Below are positions 26,376 to 54,153 of a DNA stretch of 64,000 nucleotides, in pieces. Each line of letters opens with the position of its first letter. The first letter of the stretch is position 1. The stretch is from assembly GCA_945874155.1 (NCBI GenBank), contig CAMCFO010000010.1, positions 1 to 64,000 of the forward strand. Reading direction: 5' to 3'. The notes under the pieces are model-generated. The model did no database searches. It saw nothing but the letters and a program-made list of their open reading frames with translations, and was not told where the DNA came from. The position numbers and the translations under genes are program-made. This DNA comes from an uncultured Bacteroidales bacterium. GTDB taxonomy: Bacteria > Bacteroidota > Bacteroidia > Bacteroidales > UBA932.

Positions 26376-26415
26376 GCCTTAAACTGTTAAACTTTCGGTA
26401 CACACAATTCAAGGC
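26376..26415 (-). promoter_or_regulatory. Possible expression-platform hairpin of the FMN riboswitch
   Basis: Between the aptamer and the start codon an 8-bp helix can form on the minus-strand RNA: GCCTTGAA with TTTAAGGC, with one G-U pair. Its 3' arm includes an AAGG lying about 10 nt before the ATG, and its 5' arm abuts the aptamer's closing stem. This fits ligand-dependent hiding of the ribosome-binding region, but I cannot fold it here. Confidence 0.45.
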
Positions 26416-26418
26416 TTT

Positions 26419-26574
26419 CTTCTTTCATCCAGACTGAGAAGCCGATCTCGGTTGCCTCTGGGGCCGTTTCCGAGGAGTTTCAGCTTCAATACTGTCGGTG
26501 CCGTAGTTTCAACGGCTCGTGCCTTTCGGCTCGCGGACTATACCGCCGATCGGGATTTTCACCCTGCCCTGAAG
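26419..26574 (-). ncRNA. FMN riboswitch (RFN element)
   Basis: Read on the minus strand, the RNA begins CUUCAGGGCAGGGUGAAA, continues UCCCGAUCGGCGGU and GUCCGCGAGCC, and ends with CAGUCUGGAUGAAAGAAG. These are the invariant blocks of the RFN element, in the right order, with the closing CUUC/GAAG helix. Between them lie variable hairpins, including GAGCCG...CGGC and a longer arm near AGCUGAAAC. Length (about 156 nt) is within the family range. It is the leader of the TonB receptor gene. FMN riboswitches normally repress flavin synthesis or import genes when FMN is plentiful. Confidence 0.93.
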
Positions 26575-26585
26575 TAATGCGGGCG

Positions 26586-35944: not shown

Positions 35945-36526
35945 TTACAAAAAGTGAAGTAAATGAGAATGGACCAGATGCGCCGGAAGCCCCATAACAG
36001 TAAAGTAAGAGCCTGATATTCCGCTAATTGCAGCAAGCCCAATCCATTCCTGAATGCCGTATGCCCCTGCTTTGTCGAAAGGTTGAAATTTGTCAATATA
36101 GAAGGCAATTTCACTTTCAGACAGTTCGGCAAAGTGCACCTGACATACATCAGTGAAAGTATCTTCCTCAATATGGTTACGAATTGTAACTCCAGTAACC
36201 ACTTCGTGCGTTCTGCCGGAAAGTTTTCTCAACATTCTCTCCGCATCTTCTTTGCCGTGGGGCTTGCCCATCACTTCTGAATCACAAAGTACGATGGTGT
36301 CCGCTGTAATCAGAACTTCATTTTCCTGCAAAGGTCTGTGAAATCCGTGTGATTTTCCCCGGGATAAGATCGCTGGAATATCGTGCAGGGGAGTGCCCGG
36401 TTCGAAATGCTCCTCAAAATTGTTTGCGGTGTCCACTTCGAAATCAATGCAAAGTCCCTGGAGTATCTCCTTCCTTCTCGGGGATGCACTTCCAAGAATT
36501 ATATGTTTATTTGTCGCAAAGTACAT
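35945..36526 (-). CDS. maf: Maf-family nucleoside triphosphate pyrophosphatase
   Basis: House-cleaning nucleotide pyrophosphatase (193 aa) acting on dTTP/UTP or modified nucleotides. Hallmarks are IILGSASPRRKEILQ at the N-terminus, ITADTIVLCDSEVMGKP in the middle, and FDKAGAYGIQEWIGL toward the C-terminus. The start codon lies three bases after the end of a full copy of the 162-bp repeat, so the repeat forms the maf leader. Upstream on the same strand are kdsC and DUF3467. Downstream lies the hairpin-rich gap beside tRNA-Gln. Confidence 0.93.
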   Translation of the reverse strand: MYFATNKHIILGSASPRRKEILQGLCIDFEVDTANNFEEHFEPGTPLHDIPAILSRGKSHGFHRPLQENEVLITADTIVLCDSEVMGKPHGKEDAERMLRKLSGRTHEVVTGVTIRNHIEEDTFTDVCQVHFAELSESEIAFYIDKFQPFDKAGAYGIQEWIGLAAISGISGSYFTVMGLPAHLVHSHLLHFL

Positions 36527-36529
36527 TTC

Positions 36530-36691
36530 AGTAATATGAAAAGAATAAGTTGCCTCAGATTTGAATTAGATTTTCGAGGTCAGATTTTCACCCGAAGAAG
36601 GAGCATAGCCGTAGCTATGTGACTGATGAGGGAGGAAATATGGACCGAAAAGATTTTCAAAGATGATGCAGGTTATTTTTTGAGGATTACT
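36530..36691. repeat. 162-bp interspersed repeat, copy 1 (kdsC/maf)
   Basis: Nearly identical over 162 bp to copy 2 at 52472-52633; I see two clear base differences, near the left end. Ends are AGTAAT and ATTACT, short terminal inverted repeats. Inside are a perfect hairpin CATAGC-CGTA-GCTATG and a longer pairing of TTTTCGAGGTC with GACCGAAAA. It fills the entire gap between kdsC (its right end supplies part of the kdsC stop codon) and maf. It encodes no transposase. It looks like a MITE or a structured intergenic RNA element. Confidence 0.85.
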
Positions 36692-37268
36692 AATAACATT
36701 TCTCATAAGCGGAAATGTCAAGGCTCCACTTGTTCTGAATTCTCAAAGTGATTTCAATGATTTCCCGGACAAAGCGCTTGCCGGCAGGGAAGACCGATAC
36801 ATAGTCTGCGGAAAGCAATGCTTCCTCCATCGCATCAGCCGGACAAATACCAAGTCCTGCAGCCTTCAGCACCGGCACATCAGGAAGGTCGTCACCGCAA
36901 TAGAGCACTTCTTCGGCAGCAAGACCATGCTTGTCCATAAAATTCTCAAAATCTGCTATCTTGTTCTTGGAATTCAAATATATATCCGGCCCGCTGAAGC
37001 CGAACTTGCTGAAACGACTGACTATGCTGTCCGAGTGCCCGCCGGTGATGATGCCCAGTTTGAAACCATGCATTCCAGCCATCCTGAGCCCGAACCCGTC
37101 CTTGGCATCATAAGTTCTGAGGAACTCACCGGAATTATCCACGAAAATGCTTCCGTCAGTCATTACCCCGTCAATGTCGAAGGTAAATGCCTTGATTTTC
37201 AAGAACTTCTCATAAAGCGAGTCTGGAATTTCCAGTTCCCGCAATTGTGAATTCACTATTTTTACCAT
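36690..37268 (-). CDS. kdsC: KdsC-type HAD phosphatase (Kdo-8-P phosphatase)
   Basis: HAD-superfamily hydrolase of 192 aa, C0 type without cap domain, resembling 3-deoxy-D-manno-octulosonate-8-phosphate phosphatase of lipopolysaccharide Kdo synthesis. Motif I is FTFDIDGVMTDGSIF, motif II LGIITGGHSDSI, and motif IV YCGDDLPDVPVLK. A related specificity (for example a Neu/Leg-9-phosphatase) cannot be ruled out. The stop codon TAG is formed at the junction with the 162-bp repeat, so the insertion may have altered the last residues (AYEKCY). It lies two bases after the DUF3467 gene's stop. Confidence 0.88.
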   Translation of the reverse strand: MVKIVNSQLRELEIPDSLYEKFLKIKAFTFDIDGVMTDGSIFVDNSGEFLRTYDAKDGFGLRMAGMHGFKLGIITGGHSDSIVSRFSKFGFSGPDIYLNSKNKIADFENFMDKHGLAAEEVLYCGDDLPDVPVLKAAGLGICPADAMEEALLSADYVSVFPAGKRFVREIIEITLRIQNKWSLDISAYEKCY

Positions 37269-51483: not shown

Positions 51484-52449
51484 TCAAATAACAGAGCGAA
51501 TGAGCATAGTCATATAAACAACTTCCATCAGGAGCAGGACGATGCCTTCCGGAACCCCAAGCCTTGCACGTTTCCTGAAGCAGAGCCCGCAAAAGACAAG
51601 AAATGCAGCTGAACCGAGGACTGCCGTAATGTCTATGATGCTGATGTTACCGAACGAAAGGGGAGTTATCGTGGCAGATGCGCCAAGTATGAGCAGGATG
51701 TTGGAGATGTTGGAGCCGAGTATGTTCCCCAGTGCGAGTTGGGACCTTTTCTTTGCTGCAGCCACTACGCAGGTTGCAAGTTCGGGAAGGGAAGTCCCTC
51801 CTGCGAGAATCGTGATTGCGATGAATTTTTCAGAAACGTTGAACATTTTGGCGAGTTCCACCGCCGAATTGACAAACAACTGTCCTCCGCCTACAAGCGC
51901 TACAAGTCCGAAGATTATCATAACGACTGCGACCGGGGTTTTGTAGAGCTTTACCTCCGTTTCTTCCTCTTCTTCGGTCACTTTGCCTTTCTTGAATGAG
52001 AGGTAGAGATAGAGAGCGAAGACTGCGAGCATAAGTATTCCCTCCACCCGGCTCAGGCTGTCGTTTCCCAGTCCGAAGATTGAATGTTTCATTCCAAGGA
52101 GCACAAGGGCTGCCGTAACTGCAAGATTCAGAGGCATATCCAGATTGCGGTTCGTTTTAGTGATTGTCACCGGGCAAATAAGGGCGGTAACTCCAAGAAT
52201 CAGCATCACGTTGAATATGTTGGAACCTATGACGTTGCCTATTGCAATATCCGAACTGCCCTGAAGCGCCCCGGTGCAACTTACCACCAGTTCCGGCATT
52301 GATGTGCCTATGCCAACGATAGTAAGCCCTATGACGAATTCACTTACTCCAGCTTTTTTGGCAATGCTTGAAGCTCCGTCCACAAGCCAGTTTGCACCCA
52401 GGAGGATAAGGGCCAGCCCACCTGCAAGAATCAATAATTGTATAAGCAT
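51484..52449 (-). CDS. CaCA-family Na+/Ca2+ exchanger (YrbG-like)
   Basis: Ten-TM cation antiporter (321 aa) of the Ca2+:cation antiporter superfamily. Two inverted alpha repeats are plain: VGIGTSMPELVVSCTGALQG with IAIGNVIGSNIFNVMLILG, and LAGGTSLPELATCVVAAAK with LALGNILGSNISNILLILG. An acidic loop (VTEEEEETEVKLYK) lies between the halves. Ion preference is not visible. A full copy of the 162-bp repeat occupies its upstream region, ending 22 nt before the ATG. Confidence 0.93.
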   Translation of the reverse strand: MLIQLLILAGGLALILLGANWLVDGASSIAKKAGVSEFVIGLTIVGIGTSMPELVVSCTGALQGSSDIAIGNVIGSNIFNVMLILGVTALICPVTITKTNRNLDMPLNLAVTAALVLLGMKHSIFGLGNDSLSRVEGILMLAVFALYLYLSFKKGKVTEEEEETEVKLYKTPVAVVMIIFGLVALVGGGQLFVNSAVELAKMFNVSEKFIAITILAGGTSLPELATCVVAAAKKRSQLALGNILGSNISNILLILGASATITPLSFGNISIIDITAVLGSAAFLVFCGLCFRKRARLGVPEGIVLLLMEVVYMTMLIRSVI

Positions 52450-52471: not shown

Positions 52472-52633
52472 AGTAATATGAAAATAATAAGTTGCGTCAG
52501 ATTTGAATTAGATTTTCGAGGTCAGATTTTCACCCGAAGAAGGAGCATAGCCGTAGCTATGTGACTGATGAGGGAGGAAATATGGACCGAAAAGATTTTC
52601 AAAGATGATGCAGGTTATTTTTTGAGGATTACT
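52472..52633. repeat. 162-bp interspersed repeat, copy 2 (rlmD/CaCA)
   Basis: Same length and ends (AGTAAT/ATTACT) as copy 1. The internal hairpin CATAGC-CGTA-GCTATG and the whole central region are identical. It sits between rlmD (5 nt from its stop) and the CaCA exchanger, again between two co-directional minus-strand genes and in the same orientation to them as copy 1. Confidence 0.85.
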
Positions 52634-52638
52634 AATTT

Positions 52639-54045
52639 TTACTTCTTTAATCGCAGCGCAACGACATTCTCCACGTGGTGTGTCTGCGGAAACATATCCA
52701 CGGGCCTGACTGCCGTTATTTCATAATCCCGGCACAAAATTTCCAGGTCCCTTGCCTGAGATGCCGGATTGCAGCTGACATACACCATTCTGTCCGGCTG
52801 TGCCTCCAGTATGACTTTTGCCACATCCGGATGAATCCCGGCTCTTGGAGGGTCCAGAATGATTACGTCAGGATGACCGTTTTGCTCAATGAATTCCGAT
52901 GTAAGCACATCTTTCATATCCCCGGCGTAGAAAGTGCAATTGCTGATTCCGTTGTCGGAGGCATTTATACGTGCATCCCTGATAGCATCCTCCACATATT
53001 CTATACCTACGACTTTGGATGCTTTGGATGATACGAATTGTGCAATGGTACCCGTGCCTGTATAAAGGTCATAAACAACCTCATTTCCAGTCAGTTGTGC
53101 AAATTCACGCGCTGTCTGGTAAAGTTTGAGGGCCTGAGCCGTATTGGTCTGGTAAAAGGATTTCGGACCGATTTTGAAGCGCAGACCTTCCATTTCCTCG
53201 TAGATTGCGTCCATACCTCTATATAATATGCAATCCTGGTCTGAGATGGAGTCGTTGGCTTTGCCGTTGATGACATAGTAAAGGGACACAATCTGGGGAA
53301 ATGCATCTGCAACAGCATCCAGGAGCATACGGCGGGCGTTTTCATCCTCGTGATAGAAGCAAAGGATGAGCATGACCTCGCCCTTTTCGTTATTCCTCAC
53401 GACCATTGTCCTGAGAAAGCCGTGATGTTCACGTATGTTGAAGAAACTCAGGCCGTTAGCTATTGCATACTGGCGGATGAAATTGCGTATCTCATTGGAA
53501 GGGGAGGGCTGAAGGTGACAGCAGTCTATGTCCAGAACTTTGTCGAAGAAACGGCCCACGTGGAAGCCCAGTCCCAATCTTTGTTCCGGACTCAGGGCAT
53601 CAGGATCTTCATTTTCATAAATCCAGCGTCTTTCAGAGAAGGTGAATTCCAGTTTGTTGCGATAGTTTGTGGTCTTTTCTGAACCTATAATCGGCTGAAT
53701 CTCAGGCACTTGAAGGTGGCCTATACGAACCAGCTGGTCATAGACCTGTTGCTGCTTGGCCTGCAACTGCATAGGATACGGAAGCGGTTGCCATTTGCAT
53801 CCGCCGCAGATGCCGAAATATTTGCAGAAAGGCTCCAGTCTGTGCTCTGACGGCTTTTTCAGGGCAAGAATGTAGCCTTCCATATAGTTTTTCTTTTTCT
53901 TCGTGATTTTTATGTCCACAACGTCTCCCGGTACAGCAAATTGCACAAATACTACCGTCCCGTCCACGTGGGCCAAGGCTTTTCCTTCAGCGGCTACGGA
54001 CTCGATTGTTATGTCGTTCAGTATGATTTCTTGTTTTTTTCTCAT
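52639..54045 (-). CDS. rlmD: 23S rRNA (uracil-5-)-methyltransferase RlmD/RumA
   Basis: SAM-dependent methyltransferase of 468 aa. An N-terminal TRAM domain (VAAEGKALAHVDGTVVFVQFAVPGD) precedes the 4Fe-4S Cys cluster FCKYFGICGGCKWQ. The methyltransferase motifs are YDLYTGTGTIAQF, ILDPPRAGIHPDV and VYVSCNPASQARDL, the last with the catalytic Cys. The ORF track starts at a TTG (54096); ATG at 54045 (MRKKQEII) is preceded by GGA and fits. Several related U-methyltransferases exist, so the target (U1939) is a family-based guess. Confidence 0.9.
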   Translation of the reverse strand: MRKKQEIILNDITIESVAAEGKALAHVDGTVVFVQFAVPGDVVDIKITKKKKNYMEGYILALKKPSEHRLEPFCKYFGICGGCKWQPLPYPMQLQAKQQQVYDQLVRIGHLQVPEIQPIIGSEKTTNYRNKLEFTFSERRWIYENEDPDALSPEQRLGLGFHVGRFFDKVLDIDCCHLQPSPSNEIRNFIRQYAIANGLSFFNIREHHGFLRTMVVRNNEKGEVMLILCFYHEDENARRMLLDAVADAFPQIVSLYYVINGKANDSISDQDCILYRGMDAIYEEMEGLRFKIGPKSFYQTNTAQALKLYQTAREFAQLTGNEVVYDLYTGTGTIAQFVSSKASKVVGIEYVEDAIRDARINASDNGISNCTFYAGDMKDVLTSEFIEQNGHPDVIILDPPRAGIHPDVAKVILEAQPDRMVYVSCNPASQARDLEILCRDYEITAVRPVDMFPQTHHVENVVALRLKK

Positions 54046-54153
54046 TCCAATTATTTTTGTCTCCCGGATAGGGCGGGAATGGTCGTTATTGCTCAATTTT
54101 TATAGATAAGTTAACATAATATAAATTGTATAACTTTAATATGAATGGGAGTC

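Follow-up and report, generated by a model that had tools for sequence, protein, structure and literature searches.

The window (the whole stretch of 64,000 nucleotides analysed here, from contig CAMCFO010000010.1 of an uncultured Bacteroidales bacterium) contains two copies of a short interspersed element, each filling the gap between two minus-strand genes (Table 1). The first lies between the gene for a kdsC-like HAD phosphatase and maf, the second between rlmD and the gene for a CaCA antiporter. The initial annotation had placed near-identical 162-bp copies at 36530-36691 and 52472-52633, and their coordinates, length, shared orientation and unrelated surroundings were all confirmed, with an identity of 99%. 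Both were inserted at or beside the stop codon of the upstream gene; at copy 1 the TAG stop of the kdsC-like gene is formed by the flanking TA and the first G of the element.

Table 1. Features of the window at and around the two copies of the element (window positions).
Feature	Position	Strand	Remarks
maf	35945-36526	-	start codon 3 bp from copy 1
MITE copy 1	36531-36690	+	160 bp between flanks; purine-rich strand is +; flanks TCA (36528-36530) and TAA (36691-36693)
Left terminal inverted repeat GTAATATGAAAAGAATAAG	36531-36549	+	
Conserved structured unit, copy 1	36571-36651	+	outer stem with GA bulge, P1 stem, tandem-G.A arm, apical hairpin; matched by models R1 and R2
Tandem-G.A arm and hairpin, copy 1	36594-36629	+	GAAGAAGGA-GCATAGCCGTAGCTATGT-GACTGATGA
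Right terminal inverted repeat GTAATCCTCAAAAAATAAC (as read on the - strand)	36672-36690	-	
kdsC-like HAD phosphatase	36690-37268	-	3' end at copy 1
Calcium/sodium antiporter (CaCA)	51484-52449	-	22 bp from copy 2
MITE copy 2	52473-52632	+	160 bp; TAA on each side, an exact TNA duplication
Conserved structured unit, copy 2	52513-52593	+	
Tandem-G.A arm and hairpin, copy 2	52536-52571	+	
rlmD 23S rRNA uracil methyltransferase	52639-54096	-	3' end 5 bp from copy 2

The window copies are insertions wedged into gene junctions, since the same junctions in relatives are too tight to contain the element: in 24 genomes of the same genus kdsC and maf either overlap or stand a few bases apart, and rlmD and the antiporter gene are nearly contiguous in same-genus relatives wherever the two are neighbours. 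This comparison was made at the level of genes, the relatives being 51-63% identical in the Maf protein. The check for empty sites that had been proposed thus yielded element-free kdsC-maf junctions and, in most cases, element-free rlmD-CaCA junctions, but no base-exact sites, the relatives being too diverged.

The ends of the element are the imperfect inverted repeats AGTAAT/ATTACT, as annotated, although 160 bp (GTAAT...ATTAC) is the better delimitation of the mobile unit because the exact flanking duplications are TNA. The window-type end, GTAATnnnnAAAnAATAAnnTGC, is present at both ends and occurs 58 times in the genome of the window when up to two mismatches are allowed. The 16 full copies of this genome are near-identical and mostly lack an exact TNA duplication (about 5 of 16 have one, and copy 1 is a mismatch), whereas four of four elements with the window (AGTAAT) end type in genomes G022 and G030 have it; the low rate may come from recombination between copies or from misjoined short reads. 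Sister families with the ends GAARCTGTTTnnAAT have the TNA duplication at 14 of 16 pairs in genome G476, and it was also identified at many other related elements.

The genome of the window (G000, 2.59 Mb in 69 contigs) gave 41 BLAST matches to the element, so that the two copies first seen are part of a larger set and the refuting result named beforehand, an absence of other copies, is excluded. Full copies number 16 (161-162 bp, 97-100% identity by BLAST), another three are almost complete, and many are truncated or carry internal deletions; copy counts for this genome come from BLAST, pattern and model searches. By simple ORF calls all 19 full or near-full copies are intergenic, and flanking ORFs extend just a short way into the 160-162 bp of the element. 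Many copies abut a gene 3' end within 10 bp, which would follow from TNA as the target, the stop codons TAA and TGA being instances of it. At separate sites on C12 near 35783 (L112), C21 near 22068 (L115) and C31 near 17471 (L113) there are mini copies of some 32-45 bp, with both ends kept and the middle lost, and they may reflect repeated internal deletions or aborted events. Around one lone element end the sequence is identical at C22:22200-27200 and C27:22200-27200 (L109 and L110), which may reflect a genuine duplication or a region represented twice in the assembly at strain level.

The interior of the element holds a structured core. The hairpin and long pairing reported at first are real: the + strand folds as RNA from end to end at -58.2 kcal/mol (z -8.2), the - strand at -37.2 kcal/mol (z -5.0), and a DNA fold of the element retains the hairpin and stems. 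The purine-rich strand reads in the order P1 stem, GAAGAAGGA, hairpin, GACTGATGA and P1 stem. Between stem and hairpin lies a 9/9 internal loop with the pairs G.A, A.G, A-U, G.A, A.G, A-U, G-C, G.A and A.G, that is, three tandem G.A steps with Watson-Crick pairs between them. The number of steps varies from two (in L061 and L062, with a 6/6 loop) to four (in L208), and compensatory changes affect the pairs between steps, with A-U, U-A and C-G at one position and A-U to G-C at another. Tandem G.A steps average 2.27 per copy against 0.21 after shuffling, and a GA bulge in the outer stem outside P1 is conserved in 38 of 48 rows. Within the core G-U pairs exceed A-C pairs about 2:1, which marks the purine strand as the folding strand. 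Rfam 15 gave no match to the element or its core at gathering or permissive thresholds.

Covariation, one of the checks suggested at the outset, was present in each of three alignments. The scores were 0.40, 0.57 and 0.66 in the first, second and third (0.19, 0.20 and 0.21 when shuffled), and neither these scores nor the observed numbers of two-sided cells were reached in any of 500 shuffles, a comparison that related sequences inflate. Two-sided changes affected 9 of 15, 14 of 15 and 22 of 22 pairs; the last count alone was equalled in 3 of 500 shuffles. Slid controls gave covariation far below that observed. Fitting to a model of this same structure biases the second and third alignments towards it; the first, made with MAFFT, was not so fitted. 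In inverted repeats covariation can partly stem from correction of the arms at the level of DNA.

The core is shared with relatives that have other ends, their middle being in common with the window element. It was identified in 15 of 101 genomes of the same genus and, with model R2, in 13 of 393 Bacteroidales genomes (including that of the window) from 10 genera, most of them with about ten or more copies. The narrower model R1 found it in only two of 396 Bacteroidota genomes, that of the window and G476; this result alone is too narrow, as the broader R2 added 12 genomes over the Bacteroidales and a DNA pattern reached the Saprospiria. Matches to the DNA pattern comprise Bacteroidales MAGs, mostly ruminant, a Saprospiraceae MAG and a Lewinella MAG, both of class Saprospiria. 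The end types around the core are GTAATnn, GAARCTGTTT, GAGCCTGTTTAAAT, GTAACTGTTAGGAA, GAGCTTGTTTAATA, GAGGGTGTTTAATA and GAAGTGATTTAAAC, with GACTTTATGCTAAA in Lewinella, and between genomes the ends diverge more than the core.

Two variants depart from the single-core plan. Elements of about 320-350 bp with GAGCTTGTTTAATA ends (L282-L290 in G867, L248-L249 in G727) contain a mirror-ordered pair of dissimilar tandem-G.A cores, each close to its own end and with the purine strand reading inward. In L061 (G075:C15, 17877-17956) and L062 (G064:C165, 1173-1254) the core and outer stem are present and IS5-type ends are absent; these lie adjacent to a tRNA gene and directly upstream of a sequence resembling the start of tmRNA, and are perhaps a stand-alone or domesticated version of the core.

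The carriers of the core are linked to insertion sequences of the IS5 family. Genome G476 contains an autonomous IS of about 0.9 kb with ends GAAACTGTTTTGAATT/GAAGCTGTTTTGATTT, of the GAARCTGTTT type, and an intact transposase assigned to IS5 (NF033580, E 2e-68; Pfam DUF4096 and DDE_Tnp_1). An 888-bp IS5 in G632 has the ends GAGCTTGTTTAAAAA, which match those of the two-core MITEs in the related genomes G727 and G867; an autonomous IS for the GAGCTTGTTTAA ends is present in the same family. In two elements of G867 the core stands beside IS5 transposase fragments, which ties the carriers directly to IS5. In the genome of the window no parent IS for the AGTAAT ends was found; the single ends examined led to mini copies or lone ends, and no transposase lay between paired AGTAAT-type ends. 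At G000:C33:20266-20711 (L120, L222) a degraded IS5 transposase with one internal TGA is followed by a GAAACTGTTTTGA end, likely the remnant of a sister IS. The core is absent from the autonomous IS5s of G476, G632 and G799 and is thus not needed for transposition; on the same ground, an origin of the core as part of the leader of an autonomous IS was rejected. By blastn the window element had no match in plasmid and phage collections, the G476 element none in plasmids or phages and the G750 element none in plasmids, and the core pattern was not found in viral contigs.

The reading as a MITE, one of two offered initially, agrees with the multiple copies, the inverted ends, the intergenic setting, the element-free junctions of relatives, the TNA duplication and the IS5 partner of a sister end type. 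We consider it probable that the element is a non-autonomous MITE of IS5 type whose structured central module has been kept by selection. A DDE transposase acting in trans would move it by binding the short G-initial inverted ends and inserting it at TNA; the stop codons TAA and TGA would be natural targets, in keeping with copies often flush against gene 3' ends. For the window's own end type this enzyme would be an IS5 transposase. The purine-rich strand would supply the module, composed of a GA-bulged stem, a covarying stem, a ladder of two to four tandem G.A steps and a hairpin, which would have been retained, or captured anew, by MITEs whose ends differ, and effects on host genes would be secondary.

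Judged from sequence and folding, the arm probably serves a function of its own; the likeliest reading is a structured module of RNA (or of single-stranded DNA) for which IS5-type MITEs are the carriers. The module may act as RNA in transcripts crossing the element, with the G.A ladder presumably read by a protein. Such a role (end protection, insulation or protein binding) is favoured with modest confidence over that of a DNA hairpin, because G-U pairs are in excess and compensatory changes surround G.A steps that stay fixed. A bolder and only tentative proposal treats the arm, be it a structured RNA or a hairpin of single-stranded DNA, as a non-coding module that is itself mobile, read by a specific protein and repeatedly transferred between IS5-type ends, with the MITEs as its vehicles; this draws on its occurrence in two or more classes of Bacteroidota and on the end-less L061 and L062 beside tRNA and tmRNA genes.

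It is unlikely, if still worth weighing, that in the same MITE the arm works as DNA. Extruded, or single-stranded on one strand, it would either aid transposition as a binding site for the transposase or for a host factor, or shield the long palindrome from hairpin nucleases. Several features would fit: orientation to genes has no clear preference, the two-core elements have mirror-ordered arms, one close to either end, the hairpin and stems survive in the DNA fold, and tandem G.A pairs form in DNA too. Against this, the three autonomous IS5s lack the arm, IS5 transposition to our knowledge needs no single-stranded hairpin, and the excess of G-U over A-C pairs mildly favours RNA.

Rather improbable is a plain IS5-derived MITE whose core is shared by common ancestry and whose pairing is merely a product of the palindrome. 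MITEs are palindromic by origin, and A-type and B-type elements appear by eye to be alignable over most of their length; IS5-type MITEs are, moreover, already known in P. gingivalis (PMC4596501). However, conservation is among the highest at the mismatched G.A positions whereas the stems vary in a compensatory way, the G.A steps are gained or lost as whole units (two, three or four), and ends more divergent than the core are the opposite of what transposase recognition alone would predict.

Very improbable and largely refuted is the other initial suggestion, a mobile regulatory RNA placed in operons as the leader of maf and of the CaCA exchanger: the element does fill the leader of both genes in one orientation, but across the genome that orientation varies, some copies sit between convergent genes, the better-folding strand is antisense to both window operons, and the genes adjoining the two copies have no common function. 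Between co-directional neighbours, as given by simple ORF calls, the purine strand is sense in 6 cases and antisense in 4 in the genome of the window, and sense in 41 and antisense in 26 over all genomes (p about 0.09, estimated with a simple binomial). With no significant bias in these counts the position before maf and the exchanger gene is incidental, and a fixed leader function is unlikely.

The MITE as a kind is already known, and similar elements have been described in the same phylum. In Porphyromonas gingivalis, MITEPgRS/MITE464, BrickBuilt and MITE239 share their ends with ISPg1, ISPg3, ISPg4 and ISPg9 (PMC4596501). Like the window element they are found in Bacteroidales and have short inverted ends, which in their case are those of IS5-family ISs (ISPg4 ends, GAGACTGTTGCA); unlike it, BrickBuilt and PgRS/464 are described with tandem repeats inside the element, 23 or 41 nt in length (PMC4596501). 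Their descriptions set them apart, no conserved tandem-G.A hairpin being reported for them in the literature searched. A MITE of Cardinium, also of the Bacteroidota, derives from IS982 (PMC9769881). The TNA-duplicating IS5 groups resemble the present family in the G-initial ends and, for the GAARCTGTTT type, in the 3-bp TNA duplication and a transposase with DUF4096 and DDE_Tnp_1, and differ in that a transposase for the window's AGTAAT ends was not found. Presumably the element belongs with the IS1031-like IS5 groups, a subgroup placement resting on the target rule only.

Among folded MITEs of other phyla, ERIC/RU-1 and NEMIS/Correia are likewise short and intergenic with transcripts that fold end to end, and they differ in ends and sequences. 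We know of no tandem-G.A ladder common to unrelated ends in such elements. The RU elements are small folded intergenic MITEs (PMC2759123), and the REP/BIME palindromes with RAYT are small hairpins dispersed between genes (PMC3733652). In contrast to the latter, the window element has inverted ends around the whole element and a TNA duplication. A REP/RAYT assignment was rejected, as the foot of the hairpin varies between families (GTAGC, ATAGC, GATGC, TTAGC, AATGG) and no fixed GTAG or CGTC tag is present. The UGA/GAA tandem G.A motif is known in kink-turns, SECIS elements, C/D boxes and hammerhead domain II. The arm repeats this step, its strand reading GACTGATGA, and unlike the known motifs it has two to four consecutive steps. 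A kink-turn was rejected because the loop is symmetric (9/9, 6/6 or longer) with no 3-nt bulge, and a hammerhead because there is no third stem. The novelty lies in a single covarying tandem-G.A core that recurs between ends of many types, a variant not described in the literature searched.

MITEs are usually seen as passive deletion products in which only the ends recognised by the transposase are conserved. Here the pattern is reversed: the ends change between genomes, and what different orders of Bacteroidota retain is the folded inner arm. Should this arm be functional, it would offer a route to why some MITEs spread or persist and to which protein reads the G.A ladder. The covariance model is ready for use on a repeat family missing from Rfam, whose copies number about ten or more in each genome of several lineages of Bacteroidales. 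The window also contains an FMN riboswitch (Rfam RF00050, 81 bits) at 26413-26580 on the - strand, unrelated to the MITE.
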